Shown: positions 14,125 through 27,371 of the stretch, piece after piece
How positions within the stretch are numbered: position 1 is the first letter of the stretch
Layout: each line of letters opens with the position of its first letter
Assembly (NCBI GenBank): GCA_025057595.1
Contig: JANXBK010000003.1
Coordinates: forward strand, 62,001 to 126,000
Direction of reading: 5' to 3'
Origin: Thermodesulfovibrio sp.
Lineage (GTDB): Bacteria > Nitrospirota > Thermodesulfovibrionia > Thermodesulfovibrionales > Thermodesulfovibrionaceae
DNA length: 64,000 nucleotides
Notes under the pieces: generated by a model
Database searches by the model: none
What the model was told of the DNA's origin: nothing
Seen by the model: the letters and a program-made list of their open reading frames with translations, nothing else
Program-made: the position numbers and the translations under genes

Positions 14125-16194
14125 ATGGCCAACTCCCATTTAAAACTACCAATTCAGTATCTAAGAGGGATAGGACCTAAGAAAGCTAATATTTTAAAGA
14201 AAATAGGTATTCAAACTGTAAAAGATGCTTTATACTACTTTCCCTCTCACTATGAAGACAGAAGAAATAAAAAAGATATCTTTGAGATAAAGCCTGGAGA
14301 GTTTGTCTCTATCACTGGAAATATTGTTCAAATAACAGAAATAAAGACAAAAACAAATCTTTCAATAATTGAAGTAGTAGTATCAGATGGAACAGGTTAT
14401 CTTAAAGCAAAATGGTTTAATCAAAACTATCTAAAAAAGATATTCCGTCAAAAACAAAAAATTAAACTTTTTGGAAGAGTCCAACTCGACCATTGGAGTA
14501 GCTCTTTAGAAATACTAAATCCAGACTACGAGTTAGAACCCTTTAGTTTTTCTGAAAATTACGATATTTTACCGATCTATCGCCTTACTGAAGGTATAAC
14601 TCAAAAACAGCTACAATCAATTATTCTTTCAGCTCTCAGTTATGCTTTACCTTTTATTGAAGAGTATTTACCAACAGAAATTAGACAAAGAACTAAACTA
14701 CCCCTTTTGAATGAAGCATTAAAATCAATTCATTTTCCACCATCTAACACAGAAATAAGAGATCTAAATGAAAAAACAACGATTTATCATAAAAGAGTAT
14801 CTTTTGATGAGCTTTTTCTACTTCAACTAGGAATAATTTCTCTAAAATTTGGTAGAACCTCTCAAAAAGGAATATCTTTCAATCCTGAAGGGAAACTTCT
14901 TAAAGCATTCCTACAAAAACTTCCTTTTAGTTTAACAAAAGCACAGCAAAGAGTAATAAAAGAGATTCTATCTGATATGAAAAAACCTACACCAATGAAT
15001 AGACTTCTTCAAGGTGATGTAGGCTCAGGTAAGACAGTAGTGGCAGTTGCTGCTATGCTTTCAGCTGTTGAATGTGGATATCAAGCTGCTCTTATGGCAC
15101 CTACTGAGATTCTTGCAGAACAGCATTACTTAAATATCTTATCACTACTTAAAGGATTGCCCATTAATATTGTGATTCATACATCTACTCATAATAAATA
15201 TATAAATTTAATTTCCTCGGGAGTAGCAAATATAATTATTGGAACACATGCATTAATTGAGGAAAATTTAAAATTTTATAGGCTTGGTTTGGTTGTTATA
15301 GATGAGCAGCATAGATTCGGAGTGATTCAACGAGCAATGTTAAGAAAAAAAGGCTTTAATCCTGATACCCTTATTATGACTGCAACACCTATACCAAGAA
15401 CTCTAGCTCTTACAGTTTATGGAGATCTTGATTACTCCCTAATTGATGAGATGCCAAAAGGTAGAGTTCCTGTATTAACAGAAATTATTGAACCTGAGAA
15501 TAAAAAAATTATTTACAAAATTATACAAGAAGAGATAAACTCCGGTGGACAAGTCTATGTGGTTTATCCATTAATAGAGGAATCTGAAAATTTAGATCTT
15601 AAGTCTGCAACTCAGGGTTATGAAGGCTTAAGAAGGATATTTCCAAACTATAGAGTTGGTTTGCTTCATGGGAAAATGCCTCCTAAACAAAGAGAACAAA
15701 TAATGAAACAGTTTCGCTCTGGTGAAATTCAAATTCTTGTATGTACAACTGTTGTAGAAGTCGGAGTAGATGTACCAAATGCAACTCTTATGATAATAAC
15801 TCATGCAGAAAGATTTGGATTAGCACAACTTCATCAACTTAGAGGTAGAGTTGGAAGAGGCCAACGTCCATCAAAATGTATCCTTCTTCCCTACAAGCTA
15901 ACAGAAGAAGCAAAATTAAGACTTAAAGCTATCGTAAACTATAATGACGGCTTCAAAATTGCTGAAGAGGATATGAAAATAAGAGGCCCTGGAGAAATTT
16001 TTGGAGTTAAACAATCCGGAATTCCTGATTTAAAAGTAGCTGATTTATTGAGAGATCAATCACTTTTAGAGATTGCAAAAACCGAGGCTGAGTTTCTCCT
16101 AAGAAAAGACATATCTTTTAAAGAGTATCCAAAACTAAAGGAAGCCTTTGAAGAGTTTTGGGCAGACAGAATGGAAATTTTTATGACAGCCTAA
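14125..16194 (+). CDS. recG: ATP-dependent DNA helicase RecG
   Basis: RecG remodels stalled replication forks and Holliday junctions. The 689 residues have an N-terminal wedge/OB domain (about 1-160), helicase motif I LQGDVGSGKT (near residue 293), the DEQH box VVIDEQHRFGV (near 393), ATPIPRTL, and the C-terminal RGRVGRGQ and GPGEIFGVKQSG segments. Length matches E. coli RecG. The ATG at 14125 has no clear Shine-Dalgarno and starts 17 bases after nusA, so coupled translation or a slightly different start is possible. Its 3' end overlaps the convergent diguanylate cyclase gene by 14 bases. Confidence 0.96.
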   Translation: MANSHLKLPIQYLRGIGPKKANILKKIGIQTVKDALYYFPSHYEDRRNKKDIFEIKPGEFVSITGNIVQITEIKTKTNLSIIEVVVSDGTGYLKAKWFNQNYLKKIFRQKQKIKLFGRVQLDHWSSSLEILNPDYELEPFSFSENYDILPIYRLTEGITQKQLQSIILSALSYALPFIEEYLPTEIRQRTKLPLLNEALKSIHFPPSNTEIRDLNEKTTIYHKRVSFDELFLLQLGIISLKFGRTSQKGISFNPEGKLLKAFLQKLPFSLTKAQQRVIKEILSDMKKPTPMNRLLQGDVGSGKTVVAVAAMLSAVECGYQAALMAPTEILAEQHYLNILSLLKGLPINIVIHTSTHNKYINLISSGVANIIIGTHALIEENLKFYRLGLVVIDEQHRFGVIQRAMLRKKGFNPDTLIMTATPIPRTLALTVYGDLDYSLIDEMPKGRVPVLTEIIEPENKKIIYKIIQEEINSGGQVYVVYPLIEESENLDLKSATQGYEGLRRIFPNYRVGLLHGKMPPKQREQIMKQFRSGEIQILVCTTVVEVGVDVPNATLMIITHAERFGLAQLHQLRGRVGRGQRPSKCILLPYKLTEEAKLRLKAIVNYNDGFKIAEEDMKIRGPGEIFGVKQSGIPDLKVADLLRDQSLLEIAKTEAEFLLRKDISFKEYPKLKEAFEEFWADRMEIFMTA

Positions 16195-16909
16195 TTTTTT
16201 GCATTATTTCTATTCTATTTTTACCACTTCTTTTTGCTTTATATAGTGCAATATCTGCCTTCTCAATAGCTGAAACCATCTCATCAGATGAGTCTACTTC
16301 ATATATTCCGATACTTAAAGTAACATTTATTTTTTCTTTTCCTACTCTAATATACTGCTTTGAAACATACTCTCTAACTCTTTCTAAAGCTACTAAGGCA
16401 TTAATCTCATCTGTATCTGGTAGTATAATTAAAAACTCCTCCCCTCCATATCTGACTACTATGTCATTAATTCTTAACTGGTTTTTTATGTACATGGCAA
16501 CATTTGTTAAGATTTTATCACCTATAAGATGTCCATATGTGTCATTTATAAACTTAAAATTATCTATATCAATCATCGCAACAGTTAGAGGATGTCCATA
16601 TCTTTTTGATCTTGTAATTTCCTCTCTTAACCTATTTAATCCTGTATTTCTATTGTAAACAGCTGTAAGTTCATCAAAATATAATTTTACCTCAATTTCT
16701 TCAAAAAGTGATTTTATTCTCCCTTTAAAAATTTTTGCTATAAAAATAGTAGCCATCACGGCAAAGATAAAAATAATAAAAACCGTCTTTTCTTTATTTA
16801 ATCCAACAAGTAGAAATAAATTTAGGATAACTAATATCGCAAGAATATTGAAAAGCAATAACTTGTCAATCTCTTTAAGTAAATTCAACATGGTAGATTT
16901 GAGATTCAT
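16181..16909 (-). CDS. Membrane-anchored diguanylate cyclase (GGDEF)
   Basis: The protein should make cyclic di-GMP. The 242 residues have two N-terminal membrane helices (about 18-36 and 43-61) and one GGDEF domain (about 75-240) with no separate sensor domain. The active-site loop is GGEEF (155-159), the metal-binding DIDNF is intact (114-118), and an RxxD inhibitory site (RIND, 146-149) lies five residues before the active loop, predicting product inhibition. A GGGAG Shine-Dalgarno precedes the ATG, with a TGGTATAAG extended -10 further upstream. No partner gene indicates its pathway. Confidence 0.93.
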   Translation of the reverse strand: MNLKSTMLNLLKEIDKLLLFNILAILVILNLFLLVGLNKEKTVFIIFIFAVMATIFIAKIFKGRIKSLFEEIEVKLYFDELTAVYNRNTGLNRLREEITRSKRYGHPLTVAMIDIDNFKFINDTYGHLIGDKILTNVAMYIKNQLRINDIVVRYGGEEFLIILPDTDEINALVALERVREYVSKQYIRVGKEKINVTLSIGIYEVDSSDEMVSAIEKADIALYKAKRSGKNRIEIMQKIRLS

Positions 16910-16987
16910 TTTTTATCTCCCTGAAGAATTTAAAATCAAAACTTATACCAGACTAAGAAATTTTAGAAATTGGTTAGATAACTATTC

Positions 16988-17036
16988 AAATTTGTCAAGA
17001 AAGTAGACAAATTTTTCCTTCTTTGTCAAATTTTCC
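16988..17036. repeat. Short inverted and direct repeat cluster between tRNA-Leu and the diguanylate cyclase
   Basis: AAATTTGTC (16988-16996) and GACAAATTT (17006-17014) form a 9-bp inverted repeat with a 9-base spacer. A further near copy, CAAATTTTCC, lies at 17027-17036, matching CAAATTTTTCC at 17008-17018. It could be an operator, or a weak terminator for the purD/tRNA-Leu transcript. No T-run follows on the minus strand, so the role is unclear. Confidence 0.4.
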
Positions 17037-17045
17037 TACTTTAAA

Positions 17046-17126
17046 TGCGAGAGGAGGGATTTGAACCCTCACGGGTTTCCCCACTGGATTCTAAGTCCAG
17101 CGCGTCTGCCATTCCGCCACTCTCGC
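17046..17126 (-). tRNA. tRNA-Leu (anticodon TAG)
   Basis: Acceptor stem GCGAGAG/CTCTCGC, anticodon stem CTGGA/TCCAG with loop CTTAGAA (anticodon TAG), a long class II variable arm (GGGGAAACCC) and T-loop TTCAAAT. Discriminator A; CCA is not encoded. It lies 20 bases after the purD stop on the same strand, so it may be cotranscribed with the nucleotide operon. Confidence 0.95.
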
Positions 17127-17146
17127 TATTTTTATTTTATTAAAAA

Positions 17147-18412
17147 TTAAACATTTAAACCAATATCTTTTCTGTACTGCATGCCTTCAAAACTTATAAA
17201 TTCAACTGCAGAATAAGCTTTTTGTCTTGCTTCATTTATAGTTTTCCCCAAAGCTGTAACTCCTAAAACTCTTCCACCATTTGTTACTATATTGCCTTCT
17301 TCACTAAATTTAGTGCCAGCATGAAAGACAATAACATCCTTTAAACTTTTAACTCTATCAAGTCCTAAAATGGGCAAACCTTTCTTATATTTTCCGGGAT
17401 ATCCTTCAGATGCTAAAACCACACATAATGAGGCTTCATCTTTCCATTTAACATTTATTTTATTAAGTTGTCCTTCAGCAATCGCCATAAAAATATCAAT
17501 TATATCTGTTTCAAGTCGGGGTAAAATAACCTGAGTTTCCGGATCTCCGAAACGGCAGTTAAATTCAAGAACGTATGGTTTATTATTAACAATCATTAAT
17601 CCAGCATAAAGTATTCCTTTATATGTAATTCCCTCTTTTTTTAATCCTTTAATTGCAGGTTTAATTATTTTCTCAAGAATCGCTCTTTCAACCTCAGGAG
17701 TAATTACAGGATTTGGGCTATATGTGCCCATGCCCCCCGTATTCGGTCCTTGATCATTGTCAAGAAGTCTTTTATGATCTTTAGATGTAACCATGGGAAT
17801 AATAGTTTGTCCATCGGTAAAAACTAAGTAGGAGGCTTCAGTGCCTGAAAGATAATCCTCTATTACGACTCTATCACCTGATGAGCCGAAGATCTTCTCT
17901 TTCATTATGAGTCTTAATGCTTGTTGAGCCTCTTCAAAGCTTTGCACAACAAACACACCTTTTCCTGCTGCCAGACCGTCAGCTTTTATAACTATTGGAG
18001 TTCCTTTAAGTCTGATGTAGTCTTCTGCATGTGTATAGGAAGTAAAGATTTTGTAGTCAGCTGTGGGAATATTATGTCTTTTCATAAAATCTTTTGCAAA
18101 TACCTTACTTGCTTCAATTTGAGCTGCTGCTTTAGTCGGGCCAACTATTCTTCTTCCTTCTTTTATAAATAAATCTACTATTCCCTGTGCAAGAGGCTCT
18201 TCAGGACCTACTACTGTTAGGTCTATCCATTCATACTTGACAAAATCAATTAAAGCTGAAAGATCCTTACTTTCAACTTCAATGCATTCTGCTATCTCAG
18301 AGATACCAGCATTTCCTGGAGCACAATATATTCTGTCAACAACTTTTGATTGAGCAAGCTTCCAGACAATTGTATGCTCTCTTCCTCCAGAACCCACAAC
18401 TAATACCTTCAT
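17147..18412 (-). CDS. purD: Phosphoribosylamine-glycine ligase PurD
   Basis: PurD joins glycine to phosphoribosylamine with ATP, the second step of purine synthesis. The 421 residues form an ATP-grasp enzyme: N-terminal MKVLVVGSGGREHTIVWKL, GPEEPLAQGIVDLF, the ATP loop IVIKADGLAAGKGV, and the signature FNCRFGDPETQ. Length is typical. Its ATG overlaps the stop of the globin/PsiE gene by 4 bases, so the two are probably translated together. Confidence 0.97.
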   Translation of the reverse strand: MKVLVVGSGGREHTIVWKLAQSKVVDRIYCAPGNAGISEIAECIEVESKDLSALIDFVKYEWIDLTVVGPEEPLAQGIVDLFIKEGRRIVGPTKAAAQIEASKVFAKDFMKRHNIPTADYKIFTSYTHAEDYIRLKGTPIVIKADGLAAGKGVFVVQSFEEAQQALRLIMKEKIFGSSGDRVVIEDYLSGTEASYLVFTDGQTIIPMVTSKDHKRLLDNDQGPNTGGMGTYSPNPVITPEVERAILEKIIKPAIKGLKKEGITYKGILYAGLMIVNNKPYVLEFNCRFGDPETQVILPRLETDIIDIFMAIAEGQLNKINVKWKDEASLCVVLASEGYPGKYKKGLPILGLDRVKSLKDVIVFHAGTKFSEEGNIVTNGGRVLGVTALGKTINEARQKAYSAVEFISFEGMQYRKDIGLNV

Positions 18413-19305
18413 CTTCTTGCCTCCTCAGTTCTTTTTACTAACCAAAAAATTAGACCAATAACTAAAACCGAGGCTACAAGAGACAAAATGAACTCAATTG
18501 ATTCATGTTTTAAAGTAGCGATCATAACCTCTCTGATTGTGGTAACTAAAGCAACACCAATAAACACACTTATTTTAAATTTACCACCCTTTAAATGAGC
18601 TATCTCTGTATTAATTAGTTCAAGCATTACCCAAAGAATAAGAACTGAACCTAATGCAGTTATGATATTTTGCTCCAGTTGTCCAGTAAAGATTTCATAT
18701 ATATCTCTTCCACACAAATATACTACAGCTGCTGTAAGAATTATTAGGGAAAGAACTAAAGCAGCACTTGTAAGTTGTGAAAATACCTCTCCCAGACGAA
18801 GAATTTTCCCTCTCGCTATATAAGCAATTGAGTAACTTTTTATCTCCTCCTCTATATAAGATGAGTTAATTATATCAAGATTAATATCAATAATTTTGTT
18901 TATAGCAATAAAGTATCTCTCTCTTTCTCTACAAAGCTCAACTTCATCGCATAGCACATCAATACAGGAATTTTTAACTATATTTAAAGCTCTTATTAGA
19001 TAGTGAGGTTCTACTCCAGCTAACTCGTGTTTTTGCCCTATTTTTATAAGATAATCATAGTAGGTATTATCGTATTTTCCTGAGAATAGTCTTATAAACC
19101 AATCTTTTATCAAATTCATAACATGAACCTTTAGGGACTCGTTTTTAAAGACTCTTCTTGCTGACTCTGTGCTATTTATCCACTGATGAATCGCCTCTAC
19201 TACTCTGTCAGCTCTTTTTTCCATAACTGGTTTAAGCTCTAAAAGAATCTCCTCATCTTCTCTTGTGAAGTAATAATTTGTCTTTATCTCCTTGAAAGGT
19301 CTCAT
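18409..19305 (-). CDS. Protoglobin-type sensor fused to a PsiE-like four-helix membrane domain
   Basis: I recognise two parts. Residues 1-165 look like a sensor globin: an all-helical segment with KIGQKHELAGVEPHYL at 88-103, where His93 sits in the IGxxHxxxGl-type context of the haem-ligating proximal histidine of protoglobins and globin-coupled sensors. Residues about 175-298 hold four membrane helices (about 177-197, 214-235, 244-264 and 270-290) like the phosphate-starvation-inducible PsiE family. A haem-based oxygen, NO or CO sensor driving a membrane protein is plausible in an anaerobe. It lies 1 base after purH and overlaps purD by 4 bases, so it is made with the nucleotide enzymes. PsiE function is unknown, and haem binding is inferred from one motif. 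Confidence 0.7.
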   Translation of the reverse strand: MRPFKEIKTNYYFTREDEEILLELKPVMEKRADRVVEAIHQWINSTESARRVFKNESLKVHVMNLIKDWFIRLFSGKYDNTYYDYLIKIGQKHELAGVEPHYLIRALNIVKNSCIDVLCDEVELCRERERYFIAINKIIDINLDIINSSYIEEEIKSYSIAYIARGKILRLGEVFSQLTSAALVLSLIILTAAVVYLCGRDIYEIFTGQLEQNIITALGSVLILWVMLELINTEIAHLKGGKFKISVFIGVALVTTIREVMIATLKHESIEFILSLVASVLVIGLIFWLVKRTEEARR

Positions 19306-19306
19306 T

Positions 19307-20842
19307 TTAGTGCCTAAAATGCCTTATACCTGTAAAGACCATAGCTATACCATATTGATTTGCTGCATCTATAACTTCTTGATCTCTAACAGAACCACCA
19401 GGCTGTATAACTGCAGTAACTCCATTTTGAGCCAGTACATCTATATTATCTCTGAATGGAAAAAAGCCATCAGAGGCAACTACAGTATCTTTTAGTGAAG
19501 ACAATGCATGTAAAGCTCCTATCTTAGCTGAAAAAACTCTACTTGTCTGTCCTATTCCAAGACCTACTGTTCTGTCCTCCTTTGCATAAACAACTGCATT
19601 TGACTTTACATGTTTGCATACTTTCCATGCAAACTTCAGCGCTCTCCACTCCTTTTCAGTTGGATACCTCTTAGTTACAACTTTCACAGAGGCAAACTCA
19701 TCCTCCAGTGTATCCCAATGTTGAACTATAAATCCACCAAGAATTCTTTTAAAATCAAAACCTGCTGGTCTGATTTTGTCTTTAAGAGAAGGAAATCTAA
19801 TTAATCTAAGATTCTTTTTTTTGTTAAAAATCTCTAATGCCTCTTTCTCAAAATCAGGAGCTACTATAACCTCATAAAAAATATTAACTATCTCTTGAGC
19901 AGTACCACTGTCAACTTCTCTGTTAAAAGCAATTATTCCACCAAAGGCACTTACAGGATCACATTCAAAGGCTTTTTTGTAAGCATCGAAGATACTTTCC
20001 CCTATGGCAACACCGCAAGGATTATTATGTTTTACAATGACACAAACTGGCTCATCAAACTCTGAAGCCAAAAGTACTGCAGAGTGAGTATCAAGATAGT
20101 TATTGAAGGACATCTCTTTGCCTTGAATTATTTCAGCATCACATAAAGATGGAGTTTCGTTATTACTGTAAAGTGCTGCTTTTTGATGAGGATTTTCTCC
20201 ATATCTTAAAAAACTAATTAACTTAAGAGGTATAATCCAATCTCTTTTAAACTCTTCCTTTAAAATTTTACTTTCAAAATAGTCTGCAACCGCTCTGTCG
20301 TATTTTGAGAGATGCTCAAAAACCTTTTTTGCAAGCTGAAGCCTCTTTTCCTCAGAGATTTCTCCTTTTTTTATATCCTCTATAACTGACTGATAGTCAT
20401 CAGGATCTACTAAAACTAAAACATATTTGTAGTTTTTTGCAGCTGCTCTAAGAAGTGTAGGACCACCTATATCTATATTCTCTATAGCTTCATCTAATGT
20501 AATGTTTGTTTCTTTAATAGTCTCTTCAAAGGGATAAAGATTAACAGTAACAATATCTATTGGTTTTATACTGAATTTTTCCATAGTTTCTAAATCTTCA
20601 GGATTGTCTCTTCTTGCAAGAATTCCACCATGAATGAGGGGATGAAGAGTTTTAACGCGTCCTCCCATTATCTCAGGAAAACCTGTATACTCAGAAACTT
20701 CAACTACCCTTATACCAAAATCTTTAAGTAGCTTAGCAGTTCCTCCAGTAGAGATAATTTCTATATTTAGCTCTGAAAGCTCCTTTGCAAACTGAACTAT
20801 GCCTCTTTTGTCTGAGACACTGAGTAATGCGGTTTTAAACAC
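19307..20842 (-). CDS. purH: Bifunctional AICAR formyltransferase/IMP cyclohydrolase PurH
   Basis: PurH carries out the last two steps to IMP, using 10-formyl-THF. The 511 residues have the N-terminal MGS-like cyclohydrolase domain (1-200; [35 protein letters not shown]) and the C-terminal transformylase domain with the catalytic KHNNPCGVA segment near residue 268 and [11 protein letters not shown]. The formyl donor would come from Fhs, also encoded in this window. The 5' end overlaps carB by 46 bases. Confidence 0.97.
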
Positions 20843-23800
20843 CCACTCACCTCCAAATGATACTGTTGGATAGATTTTATTTTAATTGATTTTTCCTTTA
20901 AACCTGCGATTGCTTTTACCATAGCTTTTGCTCCAGAAATTGTCGTTGTATAAGGGATTTTATAATGAAGAGCTCCTCTTCTTATATATTTTGAGTCTTT
21001 TTGAGCTTGTTTACCAAAAACTGTATTTATTATAAAACTTATTCGTTTGTTTTTAATTAAATCAAGCACATTAGGTCTACCCTCTTGAAGTTTATTTACA
21101 GTGTCAACATCTAAGCCTTTCTGTCTTAAGAATTGAGCTGTTCCGCTTGTAGCTATAACCTTAAATCCCAAATTAATAAAGTCTTTTGCTACTTCTATAA
21201 TCTCTGGTTTGTCTTTATCTTTCACACTTATAAAAACTGTGCCACCAAGTGGTATTTTCCCCATCACGCTCATCTGGGCTTTTGCGTATGCTTGAGCAAA
21301 ATCTTCATCTATTCCCATAACCTCTCCTGTTGATTTCATCTCTGGTCCAAGTATCACATCAACTTCGGGAAATTTATCAAAAGGAAAAACAGACTCCTTA
21401 ACAGTAACATAAGGAAGCTTATCGATTTTTCTTATTCCAAACTCTTTTAAAGTCTTTCCAACCATTATTTTTGCAGCAATCTGTGCTAACGGAACTCCTA
21501 TACTCTTACTTACGTAAGGAATCGTTCGTGATGCACGAGGATTAACTTCTAAAACATAGACTTCTCCATCCTTTATAGCATATTGAACATTCATTAAACC
21601 TTTGACTTCAAGCTCTTTTGCAATTGCAATAGTTTGTCTTTCTATTTCTTTCACAATTTCTTCACTGAGAGAATAGGGAGGAAGACTACATGCTGAATCT
21701 CCTGAATGAATTCCAGCCTCTTCTATATGCTGCATAATACCAGCTACTATAACTTCAACTCCATCTGATATTGCATCTACATCAACTTCTATAGCATCTT
21801 CCAAGTATTTATCTACCAAAACTGGATGGTCTTCTGAAGCTTTTACAGCTTCTAATATATATTTTTTCAAAGACTCCTCATCATAGACTATCTCCATAGC
21901 TCTTCCACCTAAAACATAAGAGGGTCTTACTAAAATGGGATATCCAAGCTCTTTTGCCACTTTTAATGCTTCACTAAGTGAAGTTGCGGTCCCGCTTGGA
22001 GGCTGTTTAAGTTTGAGTTTTTCAACGAGTTCTTTAAAACGTTTTCTATCCTCGGCTCTATCAATAGCATCAGCTTTAGTACCTAAAATATTTACTCCAT
22101 TTGCTTCTAATGCCTTTGCAAGCTTAAGAGGAGTTTGACCTCCAAACTGAAGTATAACTCCTAAGGGCTTTTCTCTCTCAATCACATTTAAGACATCTTC
22201 AAGAGTTAGCGGCTCAAAGTAAAGTCTGTCTGAGGTATCGTAATCAGTACTTACAGTCTCTGGATTACAGTTAATCATTATTGTTTCAAAACCTAACTGT
22301 CTTAATCCAAAAACTGCATGAACACAGCAGTAATCAAATTCTATACCTTGTCCTATTCTGTTTGGCCCTGAACCAAGAATTATAACTTTGTTTTTATTTG
22401 AAGTTGGCGGCGCATCAGAATCAAAAAAGCTCTTAGATGAAGACTCCTCCAGTTTGTAAAATCCTCTCTCATAACAGGAATACATATAGGGTGTATAGGC
22501 TACAAACTCTGCAGCACAAGTATCAACGAGTTTATAAACGGGATTTATACCTAGGCTTTTTCTTAAATTCCTTATTTCTTCCTCTCTTTTACCTGTAAGT
22601 TGAGCAATTCTGTAGTCTGAAATTCCGCTTTGCTTTGCTTCAAAAATTAAATCCTTAGTTAAAGAATACTTTTTCAGTTTTTCTTCAACTTCTATAATTT
22701 CTCTAATATTGTGTAAAAACCAAGGATCTATTCCGCTTAACTCGTAAATCTCCTCAATACTTAATCCCTTTCTTATTGCTTCTGCAATATAGTAAAGTCT
22801 TTCAGCTGTCGGATTTTTTAGTCTCCATCTGACTTCATCAACTGATGCATTTACTTCTTCAAATCCGTATAAACCTATCTCCAATGACCTAATTGCCTTG
22901 CCAACTGCTTCTTTAAAAGTTCTTCCAATTGCCATTACTTCTCCAACAGACTTCATCTGAGTTGTAAGAATTGGATTTGCTTCAGGGAATTTCTCAAAAG
23001 TAAAACGAGGTATTTTAACAACAACGTAATCAATTGTAGGCTCAAAACTTGCTGGTGTTATCTTTGTTATATCATTAGGAATCTCATCAAGAGTGTATCC
23101 CACAGCTAATAAAGCTGCTATTTTAGCAATAGGAAATCCTGTTGCCTTACTAGCTAAGGCGGAGCTGCGAGATACTCTTGGATTCATCTCAATTATTAGC
23201 ATTCTGCCATCTTTAGGATTCACTGCAAACTGAATATTGCTTCCTCCTGTATCAACTCCTATCTGTCTTATTGCTTTTATTGCATTGTCTCTCATCAACT
23301 GATACTCCTTGTCTGTAAGTGTTTGAACTGGGGCCACTGTAATAGAATCGCCTGTATGAATACCCATAGGGTCGAAGTTTTCTATTGCACAAATTATTAC
23401 TACATTGTCTGCTTTATCTCTCATAACTTCGAGCTCAAACTCTTTCCATCCAAGAAGACTTTCTTCAACTAAAACTTGACTTACAGGACTTATTTTAAGA
23501 GCTCTGTCAAGAAGCTCCTTGTACTCCTCTATGTTGTAAGCTATTCCTCCACCTGTTCCACCTAAGGTAAAGGCTGGTCTAAGAATAGCCGGAAATCCAA
23601 TATAATCAATAATTTCGAGACCTTCCTTAAAAGATTGAACAGCAACTGAACGCGGTACTTCTATACCTATAGCAGTCATTGCTCGTTTAAAAAGCTCTCT
23701 GTCTTCGGCTTTTTTTATTGCTTCAAGATTAGCTCCAATAAGCTCAACTGAGTATCTCTCAAGAACTCCTGCTTCTCCGAGTTCAACAGCTAAATTTAAA

Positions 23801-24084
23801 GCTGTTTGTCCTCCAAGAGTTGGAAGAAGCGCGTCAGGTCTTTCTTTCTTTATTATTAATTCAAGAATCTCTGCTGTAAGAGGCTCTATATAAGTTTTAT
23901 CTGCCATAGCTGGATCAGTCATTATTGTAGCCGGATTTGAATTTACGAGAACTACTTCATATCCTTCTTTTTTAAGAGCTTTACATGCTTGAGTTCCTGA
24001 GTAATCAAACTCACAGGCTTGACCAATTATTATTGGTCCAGATCCTATTATTAGTATTTTTTTAATATCTTGTCTTTTGGGCAT
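20797..24084 (-). CDS. carB: Carbamoyl-phosphate synthase large subunit
   Basis: CarB makes carbamoyl phosphate from bicarbonate, ammonia (from CarA) and two ATP for pyrimidine and arginine synthesis. The 1095 residues are full length: two homologous ATP-grasp halves (about 1-550 and 551-935; [17 protein letters not shown] and [16 protein letters not shown] mark their starts) and a C-terminal MGS-like allosteric domain (about 945-1075). A short extra tail extends over the start of purH. Some thermophiles split carB; this one is not split. It lies 10 bases after carA. Confidence 0.97.
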
Positions 24085-24094
24085 ACTCTAACTT

Positions 24095-25174
24095 TTAAGA
24101 GTTTATAGTAATCTGCATAAATTTTTCAAAAATATCTAAAGCATCATTTGGTCCTGGGCCAGCCTCTGGATGGTGTTGAACAGAAAAAATTGGATATTTT
24201 CTATGTCTCATACCTTCTTCAGTACCATCATAAAGATTTCTATGAGTTAACACAACCTCTTCTTTGAGACTCTCTATATCAACACAGTAGTTATGATTTT
24301 GAGCTGTTATACTGATTCTACCTGTATCTAAATCTTTTACAGGATGATTTCCTCCATGGTGCCCAAATTTAAGCTTATAGGTTTTTCCACCAAGTGCGAG
24401 TCCTATTAGTTGATGACCAAGACATATTCCAAAAACAGGCTTTTTACCTATAAATTTTTTTATATTCTCTACAGCATACTGAAGTATCTTAGGGTCACCA
24501 GGACCGTTACTAAGAAGAATACAGTCTGGATTCATTTTTAAAACTTCCTCAGCTGGCGTTTTCGCAGGCACTAAGAAAATTGAAAAACCCACTCTTTTTA
24601 AGTTCTTTAATATACTTAATTTAACCCCAAAATCATACACTACACATAAAGGCTTGCCATTTTCAATATAGTACGGAGCTGGGTTAATAGAAGTTACACT
24701 GCTTACATGATCAATCTCTGAAATGTCCGGATGAGCTTTAACTTTCTTAAGTAAACTATAAGGATCTAAATCTTCCGTAGAAATTATTCCCATCTGAGCT
24801 CCGTAATCCCTTAAATGTTTTGTGAGTGCACGAGTGTCAACTCCCTGAATTCCAACAATTCTATACTTTTTTAGATAATCATCAAGATTACCTTGAGATC
24901 GCCAATTACTTGGATAGTACTTATACTCTCTTACAACAAAGCCTTCAACTTTTGGTTTAAATGACTCTATATCCTCTTCATTTACTCCATAATTTCCAAT
25001 TTGAGTATAAGTCATCACAACTATTTGACCTTTATAAGAAGGATCTGTAAGAATCTCCTGATATCCTGTGATTGATGTATTAAATACAACCTCACCTATG
25101 CTTTCACCTTCGGCTCCAAAGGAGTAACCTTCAAAGACTGTCCCATCTTTTAAAACTAATAAAGCCTTTTTCAT
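24095..25174 (-). CDS. carA: Carbamoyl-phosphate synthase small (glutaminase) subunit
   Basis: CarA hydrolyses glutamine and channels ammonia to CarB. The 359 residues contain an N-terminal small-subunit domain (DGTVFEGYSFGA; FNTSITGYQEILTDPSY) and a class I glutamine amidotransferase domain with the catalytic cysteine in FGICLGHQLIGLALGG and the His/Glu pair in SVQHHPEAGPGPNDA. It overlaps pyrC by 4 bases. Confidence 0.97.
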   Translation of the reverse strand: MKKALLVLKDGTVFEGYSFGAEGESIGEVVFNTSITGYQEILTDPSYKGQIVVMTYTQIGNYGVNEEDIESFKPKVEGFVVREYKYYPSNWRSQGNLDDYLKKYRIVGIQGVDTRALTKHLRDYGAQMGIISTEDLDPYSLLKKVKAHPDISEIDHVSSVTSINPAPYYIENGKPLCVVYDFGVKLSILKNLKRVGFSIFLVPAKTPAEEVLKMNPDCILLSNGPGDPKILQYAVENIKKFIGKKPVFGICLGHQLIGLALGGKTYKLKFGHHGGNHPVKDLDTGRISITAQNHNYCVDIESLKEEVVLTHRNLYDGTEEGMRHRKYPIFSVQHHPEAGPGPNDALDIFEKFMQITINS

Positions 25175-26466
25175 TCTTCCCTCATATCAAAAATATTCTT
25201 TCCTCTTATTGTCATTAATACCTTTCCTTTAAGTTTCCAACCGTGAAATGGAGTATTTTTACCCTTAGAAGCAAACTTATTTTTATCAACTATCCAGTCT
25301 TTGTTAACATCCACTAAAATTAGATCTGCCTCTGCTCCCTCTTTAATACCTTGTCTATTTATATTTAGAATTCTTGCAGGATTTAATGTAAACTTCTCAA
25401 CAAGCTGTCTTAATGTTAGCACTCCTTCATGATAAAGATTTAAACTTAAAGAAACAGCAGTTTCAAGCCCTGAGATACCATTTGCAGCCTCTTCAAAAGG
25501 AACATTCTTTTCATCCTCATGATGTGGAGCATGATCAGTAGCTATCACATCTATAACTCCCTCTTTCAAGCCTATTTTTATTGCCTCTTTGTCCTCCTCG
25601 TTTCTTAACGGCGGATTTACTTTAGCAGAAGTATCATAATTCCCAATTGCTTTCTCTGTAAGAGTAAAGTAATGGGGACAAGTTTCTGCAGTAACCATTA
25701 TACCCTCTTGCTTTGCTCTTTTTATAATCTCTAGGGAAGATTTAAGAGAAACATGAGCGATATGTATGGGGGACCTATAGTATTTACAAAGAATTATATC
25801 TCTCATAACCATAATTTCCTCTGAAGCAGCTGGTATACCCTTAAGTCCAAGATAAAAAGAGAGTTTTCCCTCATTCATAACACCCTCTTCGGTAAGATTA
25901 ATGTCTTCGCAATGGGAGATAATTGGAGCATTTATAGCTTTTGCATACTGCAGTGCTCTTTTCATAACAAGAGAGTTCATAACAGGCATACCATCATCTG
26001 AAAAGGCAACACAACCAGCCTCTTTAAGAAGAGCCATCTCAGAAAGCTCCTCCCCTTTAAGTCCTTTTGTTATCGCACCAACTGGTAAGACTTCACAACT
26101 TCCTTCATCTTTTGCTTTTGCCAATATATAGTAGGTTACTTCAGGATTATCATTGACGGGATTAGTATTTGCCATACAACATACAGTTGTAAATCCTCCT
26201 TTTACTGCTGCTAATGTTGCTGTATGAATAGTTTCTTTGTATTCATACCCAGGCTCTCTTAGATGAGCATGCATATCTATAAAACCAGGGAAAAGATATA
26301 GACCTTCTGCATCAATCTGAAGAATTTGAGATTTTAAAGAAGGTGCTGTTCTTCTTTCTTTAAATTTTACCTCTCTAATAATACCCTCTTCTATAGTTAA
26401 ATCTACTTTCCCCTCCTTTGCTGTAAAGGGATCAATCATATAAGCATTGTAAATTTTTATAATCAT
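25171..26466 (-). CDS. pyrC: Dihydroorotase (class I)
   Basis: PyrC cyclises carbamoyl aspartate to dihydroorotate. The 431 residues are an amidohydrolase with the zinc-binding GFIDMHAHLREPGYEYKE segment near residue 60, a lysine in VGAITKGLKG that fits the carboxylated bridging lysine, HCED and HIAHVS metal histidines, and the catalytic ATDHAPHH aspartate. It lies 2 bases after pyrB. The metal and substrate residues look intact, so it is likely an active enzyme rather than a PyrC-like scaffold for PyrB. Confidence 0.96.
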   Translation of the reverse strand: MIIKIYNAYMIDPFTAKEGKVDLTIEEGIIREVKFKERRTAPSLKSQILQIDAEGLYLFPGFIDMHAHLREPGYEYKETIHTATLAAVKGGFTTVCCMANTNPVNDNPEVTYYILAKAKDEGSCEVLPVGAITKGLKGEELSEMALLKEAGCVAFSDDGMPVMNSLVMKRALQYAKAINAPIISHCEDINLTEEGVMNEGKLSFYLGLKGIPAASEEIMVMRDIILCKYYRSPIHIAHVSLKSSLEIIKRAKQEGIMVTAETCPHYFTLTEKAIGNYDTSAKVNPPLRNEEDKEAIKIGLKEGVIDVIATDHAPHHEDEKNVPFEEAANGISGLETAVSLSLNLYHEGVLTLRQLVEKFTLNPARILNINRQGIKEGAEADLILVDVNKDWIVDKNKFASKGKNTPFHGWKLKGKVLMTIRGKNIFDMREE

Positions 26467-26468
26467 TT

Positions 26469-27371
26469 TTAGCTTCTTCTTAACAAATAAATAACTGCCA
26501 TCCTTGTAGCAATGCCATTTGTAACCTGTTTTAGAATTATCGCACGAGGATCATTAACGACTTCTGTTGAAACCTCAACTCCTCTATTCATTGGACCAGG
26601 ATGCATAAGAATCGCATCATCTCTTACAAAGCTTAAATCTTCCTTTTTTAATCCCCAAAAGTGATAATACTCTTTGAGAGAGGGTATAAAACCACTTTTC
26701 TGTCTTTCAAGTTGAATTCTTAACATGATTATCACATCAGCATCTTTTATTCCATCCCTTAATCGATAGTAAACCTTAACATTTTCAGGAGGATGGGAAG
26801 GCAGAAAGGTTGGAGGTCCTACAAATCTTATCTCTGTATCAAATTTACTTAAAAGATAGTAGTTTGATCTCGCTACCCTGCTGTGAAGAATGTCACCAAC
26901 AATAGCTATTTTTAAACCGTCAATTCTTCCCTTTATTTCAAGTATGCTGAAGGCATCTAAAAGTGCCTGTGTAGGATGTTCATTTATTCCATCTCCTGCA
27001 TTAATAACTGAGGCTTCTGTATGATCAGCAATGAACTTCGCAGCTCCGCTTGAGGAGTGTCTAATTACTATGTAATCAACATTATAAGCTTCTATAGTTT
27101 TCAAAGTATCATAAAGAGTTTCACCTTTAACTACTGCAGAAGTTGGAACAGAGAAATTAAGAACATCAAGACTTAATCTTTTTTCAGCCAGCTCAAAGGA
27201 TGTTCTTGTACGAGTTGAAGGCTCAAAAAAGAGGTTTATCGCTGTTTTACCTCTTAGAGTAGGAACTTTCTTTATATCTCTTTGCAAAACCTCTTTAAAA
27301 GCTTTTGCGGTATTAAGGATTTCTTCAATTTGAGCTCTACTAAGCTCTTTTATTCCTATTAGATCTTTCAT
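26469..27371 (-). CDS. pyrB: Aspartate carbamoyltransferase catalytic chain
   Basis: PyrB condenses carbamoyl phosphate with aspartate, the committed pyrimidine step. The 300 residues hold the carbamoyl-phosphate loop FFEPSTRTRTSFELA near residue 50, the conserved HPTQALLDAFSI segment, and LMHPGPMNRGVEV near the C-terminus. No regulatory chain gene (pyrI) is adjacent, fitting a class B or C enzyme working with PyrC. It overlaps pyrR by 4 bases. Confidence 0.97.
   Translation of the reverse strand: MKDLIGIKELSRAQIEEILNTAKAFKEVLQRDIKKVPTLRGKTAINLFFEPSTRTRTSFELAEKRLSLDVLNFSVPTSAVVKGETLYDTLKTIEAYNVDYIVIRHSSSGAAKFIADHTEASVINAGDGINEHPTQALLDAFSILEIKGRIDGLKIAIVGDILHSRVARSNYYLLSKFDTEIRFVGPPTFLPSHPPENVKVYYRLRDGIKDADVIIMLRIQLERQKSGFIPSLKEYYHFWGLKKEDLSFVRDDAILMHPGPMNRGVEVSTEVVNDPRAIILKQVTNGIATRMAVIYLLRRS

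Follow-up and report, generated by a model that had tools for sequence, protein, structure and literature searches.

A predicted globin-coupled sensor fused to a PsiE membrane domain is encoded between purH and purD in Thermodesulfovibrio

The window, meaning the whole stretch of 64,000 nucleotides analysed from contig JANXBK010000003.1 of a Thermodesulfovibrio sp. genome with 72% completeness, contains a same-strand run of genes in the order pyrC-carA-carB-purH-(globin-PsiE)-purD. The gene between purH and purD encodes a globin fused to a PsiE membrane domain, and the features of the locus are as follows.

17147-18412, minus strand: purD (GAR synthetase), directly downstream of the fusion gene with a 4-nt ATGA overlap
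18409-19305, minus strand: globin-PsiE fusion gene, 298 amino acids, ATG start (open reading frame, Pfam, homologues)
18424-18765, minus strand: PsiE domain, residues 181-294, four predicted membrane helices (Pfam, hydropathy)
18772-18843, minus strand: helical linker after the SYxEEE motif, residues 155-178, leading from helix H to the first membrane helix
18844-19305, minus strand: Protoglobin or globin-coupled sensor (GCS) globin domain, residues 1-154 (Pfam PF11563; model against 2w31, Z 23.2)
19027-19029, minus strand: codon of His93, the putative proximal haem ligand (F8), invariant in 71 of 71 homologues
19307-20842, minus strand: purH (AICAR transformylase/IMP cyclohydrolase), directly upstream of the fusion gene with a 1-nt gap
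20797-24084, minus strand: carB, upstream in the same-strand run in Thermodesulfovibrio (named from sequence; order kept in the genus)
24095-26466, minus strand: carA and pyrC, upstream of carB in the run (named from sequence)

The TAA stop codon of purH is followed after one base by the ATG of the fusion gene, whose 3′ end (AGA AGA TGA) overlaps the ATG of purD by 4 nt, with a GGAGG shortly upstream, so that the spacing given in the original prediction could be read directly in the sequence. Because of the 1-nt gap and the 4-nt overlap, co-transcription of purH, the fusion gene and purD is likely. The original prediction further held that the dose of the protein is tied to nucleotide synthesis; the part of it that concerns co-transcription is supported by this spacing, while a functional tie to purines, or a direct influence on their synthesis, is no more than possible. 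A promoter and terminator scan of positions 16800-27200 gave counts equal to those of shuffled sequence, and neither PADLOC nor a plasmid tblastn search returned a match. On the same strand, 237 nt downstream of purD, lies a gene for a membrane GGDEF protein (16181-16909, minus strand; GGDEF E 5.9e-44), and a GGDEF membrane protein also follows purD in three other loci (L051, L052, L057).

The two halves of the protein gave profile matches far above their cut-offs, the N-terminal half to Pfam Protoglobin PF11563 (residues 12-154, E 6.7e-25, 88.4 bits against a cut-off of 25) and the C-terminal half to Pfam PsiE PF06146 (residues 181-294, E 8.1e-22, 78.1 bits against 23.9), which places a putative output domain C-terminal to the globin in the same chain. 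The closest solved relative by sequence was 2w31, the globin domain of GsGCS, a globin-coupled sensor from Geobacter sulfurreducens (E 2.2e-27, residues 3-161, extending through the SYxEEE linker). The AlphaFold2 model, built from 15 sequences, had a mean pLDDT of 73.6, with about 75-90 in the globin and about 55-71 in PsiE, and the 3/3 sensor-globin fold was present in it. Over residues 1-158, to which the structural matches apply, both aligners placed 2w31 first (Foldseek TM 0.92 on target; VIA-align Z 23.2, rmsd 1.6 Å, 151 residues), with VIA-align Z of 21.4 for AfGcHK and 21.1 for HemAT (predicted model); by fold, 2w31 was followed by AfGcHK, a Thermosynechococcus globin, HemAT, BpeGReg, protoglobin and DosC. 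The expectation of a protoglobin-type haem domain joined to PsiE was thus supported by the profiles, the predicted fold and a conserved haem-ligand histidine.

The proximal-histidine motif KIGQKHELAGVEPHYL is found exactly in the reading frame, and its His93 aligns with His93 (F8) of 2w31. Among 71 distinct homologues, the invariant residues of the globin part were Y11, W69, G76, G90, H93, H101, D140, Y150 and E153, from which we strongly infer that haem is bound via His93. The distal positions, labelled B10 and E11 by alignment to 2w31 (residue 40 = 2w31 Tyr40) rather than from a haem-bound model, are variable. Residue 66 (E11) is Ile in the window protein and Val or Ile in all 16 genomes of the genus; elsewhere Gln is commonest in families f12, f8 and f25, and His occurs only in f6/f7-type rows and two others, so that Gln, Val, His, Ile and Arg are all found across the family. 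Residue 40 (B10) may be Tyr, Ser, His or Asn; it is Tyr in 12 of the 16 Thermodesulfovibrio genomes and throughout the f28/f32 rows, and His in the window protein and one other genome of the genus. The predicted ligand-binding side of the globin therefore differs between lineages, and since the distal pocket varies, a single shared ligand across the fusion family is not assured.

GsGCS is the nearest known counterpart by both sequence and fold (Pesce et al. 2009, J Mol Biol 386:246, as cited in PMC4476040), sharing the identically numbered proximal His93 and, at the end of the solved construct, the SYxEEE linker motif that is conserved in the fusion family. It differs in its second haem ligand, HisE11 (His66), where the window protein has Ile66, and at residue 40, which is Tyr in GsGCS and His in the window protein. 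With Ile66 at E11, and Val or Ile genus-wide, the GsGCS-type residue pair (HisE11 + HisF8) is lacking, and bis-histidyl coordination through E11 would not be expected. The original prediction also spoke of a first input domain for PsiE; since GsGCS, the closest structure, shares the linker motif and in its full-length form probably has a C-terminal membrane domain as well, an architecture of this sort is unlikely to be new with the window protein.

The PsiE part contains four hydrophobic segments (centres near residues 190, 224, 254 and 281) and four helices in the models, in agreement with the predicted four PsiE-type membrane helices. In the same 71 homologues its invariant residues were W225, E229, L230, E234, G240, F248, A252, R258, G284 and W288, of which Glu229 in helix 2 and Arg258 in helix 3 are invariant both in the fused forms and in the stand-alone PsiE forms found beside P-type ATPases. 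The window protein is a member of the Pfam PsiE family and not an E. coli PsiE equivalog, scoring 20.2 bits against the NF002763 cut-off of 138. It resembles E. coli PsiE and the PsiE of heat-resistance (TLPQC) islands in its profile match over residues 181-294, but bears in addition a predicted N-terminal haem globin. Sequence comparison of the PsiE part with the PDB gave no match at E 10, and a PsiE-only model of low confidence (pLDDT 66, pTM 0.43, four helices) gave nothing reliable in Foldseek (best E 0.74). Positive charge in the putative inner loop (AHLKGGKFK) and at the C-terminus (VKRTEEARR) fits a globin on the cytoplasmic side, where it very probably lies. In the model, helix 125-158 continues into helix 160-206, a continuation of the kind that PMC10882959 describes for signalling helices in other GCSs. 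Taken as the whole explanation of the protein, a membrane-anchored globin-coupled sensor that signals via its PsiE module is the reading we favour, with a probability of about 0.6.

A full-length fusion without internal stop was present in 16 of 16 Thermodesulfovibrio genomes searched (66-100% identity), and the reading frame is therefore not a chance one. Within the phylum Nitrospirota, to which the distribution counts refer, it was found in 69 of 396 genomes (E<=1e-12), mostly at full length with a few partial or globin-only copies, while a contig search returned 14 loci whose titles included Thermodesulfovibrio and Nitrospirae/Nitrospiraceae. The positions of purH and purD were listed for 149 genomes of the order and set by hand against the PsiE matches. 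In 98 of these genomes purH (or a 200-aa part of it) and purD were linked on one strand, with the fusion between them in 36, elsewhere in 8 and absent in 54; the purH-purD gap was 891-1041 nt with the fusion between (458 nt for one truncated copy) and mostly below 340 nt without it (two near 700 nt). Two further loci (L044, L122) also have the fusion between purH and purD. A hand count gave 55 carriers in the order. In 43 of these the fusion lies near purH/purD: between them in 38, beside purD only in two (f6), upstream of purH with a small ORF between in one, beside the 200-aa PurH part in one and, as a remnant, beside purD at a contig end in one. The remaining 12 carry the fusion elsewhere. 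The purH-purD placement thus recurs within the genus and in several other families (f1, f5, f7, f8, f12 and one case in f10), as the original prediction had suggested might be seen, with some lineages having the fusion placed elsewhere or lacking it altogether; families of the phylum outside the order (f25, f28, f32) showed no copy near purH or purD.

PurH itself is split in many genomes of the order, with a 200-aa MGS-like/IMP-cyclohydrolase part beside purD and an AICAR-transformylase-like ORF of about 430-490 aa elsewhere (for example L047, L048, L123, L124, L045 and L120). One f3 genome (G420:C79:9514-13016) has, in this order, the 200-aa PurH part, globin-PsiE and an AICAR-transformylase-like ORF, a purine context without purD in the stretch seen.

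A maximum-likelihood tree of the 69 fusions required 5 changes of the purHD label compared with 23.2 for shuffled labels, with one row (L114) labelled purHD that lies just upstream. Under midpoint rooting, in which the root and deep forks are uncertain owing to several weak supports and long f28/f32 branches, purHD fusions occupy scattered positions at the base of the section that belongs to the order, and fusions located elsewhere (f25, f13, some f5, f9, f10) are mostly nested. Four f5/f13 fusions (L038, L041, L043, L112) nest inside the f25 group, which suggests that an f25-type gene may have been transferred between distant families into genomes without a purine-site copy.

Within six genes each way, purD was the only neighbour common to the genus and every other pur-linked family, with full-length purH also shared between the genus and f12a and between the genus and f8; sharing of purH is undercounted, because the 200-aa PurH form was clustered separately. 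The rest of the gene order around the purH-globin-purD trio has been reshuffled, which speaks for selection on the trio or on its co-expression, and in f6 purD still adjoins the fusion by itself. On the other hand, since purH-purD is a stable pair by itself, the fusion could have inherited this slot for constitutive expression while serving a role unrelated to purines. In many genomes of the order purH and purD adjoin each other and there is no fusion gene, the related f25 and f28 fusions have no purine neighbour, and some f5/f13 genomes have an f25-like copy elsewhere in place of a purine-site copy, so that such operon hitch-hiking, which is compatible with a sensor, has slightly better than even odds as the explanation of the placement.

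Beyond the purine neighbourhood, genes for a two-CBS protein and an HPP membrane protein commonly come after the fusion in f25. The fusion directly adjoins the NO reductase genes norC and norB in two f25 loci (L105, L130), while in L097 norC starts about 350 nt downstream and in L096 norB lies two genes upstream, the names NorC and NorB resting on Pfam Cytochrome_C and NorB-like plus COX1 matches and on sequence. This proximity hints at NO as a possible ligand, a link that belongs to the f25 lineage and not to Thermodesulfovibrio. In f28 a universal stress protein and a P-type cation ATPase are encoded divergently from the fusion, and a NirB-like gene, named by sequence only, lies beyond them. 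Cytochrome bd oxidase occurs in 13 of 16 genomes of the genus, including the source genome, and hybrid cluster protein in 11 of 11 near-complete genomes of the genus; the latter was not found in the 72% complete source genome. The norCB neighbours, together with the need of anaerobic hosts to remove NO and O2 and the nitrite-reductase and peroxynitrite-isomerisation activities of protoglobin in vitro (PMC4020757), would also suit a membrane-tethered globin that consumes NO or O2, with PsiE as anchor or electron entry. Such an enzyme or scavenger is nonetheless unlikely, considering that Pfam finds no reductase domain in the chain, that the nearest globins by fold are sensor globins, and that the distal pocket lacks the conservation expected of an enzyme active site.

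Stand-alone PsiE proteins offer a lead on the output. A strong-scoring subfamily within the order adjoins a P-type cation ATPase, called by Pfam from its N-terminal, E1-E2 and P-type domains, in nine loci (L182-L186, L189, L191, L193, L195), several of them with overlaps of a few nucleotides. In six loci (L187, L188, L190, L192, L194, L196) no ATPase was found beside PsiE; some of these sit at contig edges, hold broken copies or belong to a different subfamily. No P-type ATPase adjoins the weak-scoring stand-alone class (20 loci), so that the ATPase link appears specific to one PsiE subfamily. Some of the loci L131-L145 and L182-L195 continue with a histidine-kinase-like gene and a CPA-type antiporter. 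Gene lists of heat-resistance islands (TLPQC) place PsiE beside a K+ efflux protein of KefB/KefC type (PMC7685784, PMC5347186). Together with the f28 ATPase neighbour, these associations would support a scheme in which PsiE proteins serve cation transporters as regulatory subunits and the haem globin gates ion flux in response to NO, O2 or redox state, from a gene locked in a purine operon; as this link rests on a different PsiE subfamily and one clade of fusions (f28), the scheme in full is a doubtful one.

Some stressosome globin-like domains are haem-free sensors, and the variable distal residues would allow a comparable pseudo-sensor here that keeps the globin fold and senses something else, but this is very improbable given that His93 is conserved in 71 of 71 homologues and that H101, W69, Y11 and G90 are also invariant.

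The most plausible reading of the window protein is thus a cytoplasm-facing, dimeric, haem-based gas or redox sensor, in line with the gas- or redox-sensing membrane protein of the original prediction, which is plausible. The cytoplasmic N-terminal globin would bind haem via His93 and, by analogy with other GCS globins, very probably form a dimer by way of helices G and H. The G/H bundle could then shift when a diatomic gas (NO or O2, with CO possible) binds or the iron changes its redox state, and the shift may travel from helix H through the SYxEEE linker helix to the first membrane helix. More tentatively, the four-helix PsiE module, with the helix 2 Glu and helix 3 Arg as its conserved core, might change state in response and would most likely act on a partner membrane protein as its small regulatory subunit, a cation transporter being the best lead for that partner. 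In the slot between purH and purD, translational coupling would keep co-expression steady and linked to growth.

GCS proteins and PsiE are each already known. In open-licence literature, we found no published account of a PsiE-globin fusion or of its purine placement, and nothing relevant on PsiE with globin or on Thermodesulfovibrio with globin. GCS outputs include a methyl-accepting chemotaxis protein (MCP) in HemAT, a histidine kinase in AfGcHK and diguanylate cyclases in BpeGReg, DosC and PccGCS. The window protein shares with these the sensor globin fold and a helix H that runs towards the output domain (PMC10882959), but its output would be a four-helix PsiE membrane domain in place of a kinase, cyclase or MCP. 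The fusion would therefore add a membrane output to the GCSs, most of whose studied outputs are cyclases, kinases or chemoreceptors. To our knowledge, PsiE, named decades ago, has no established function; its natural fusion to a haem sensor may offer an input that can be tested, gas or redox, and the pairs of stand-alone PsiE and ATPase a partner that can be tested. The recurrent purH-globin-purD order, finally, raises the question of whether an anaerobe may couple gas exposure to purine synthesis or only borrows a promoter.
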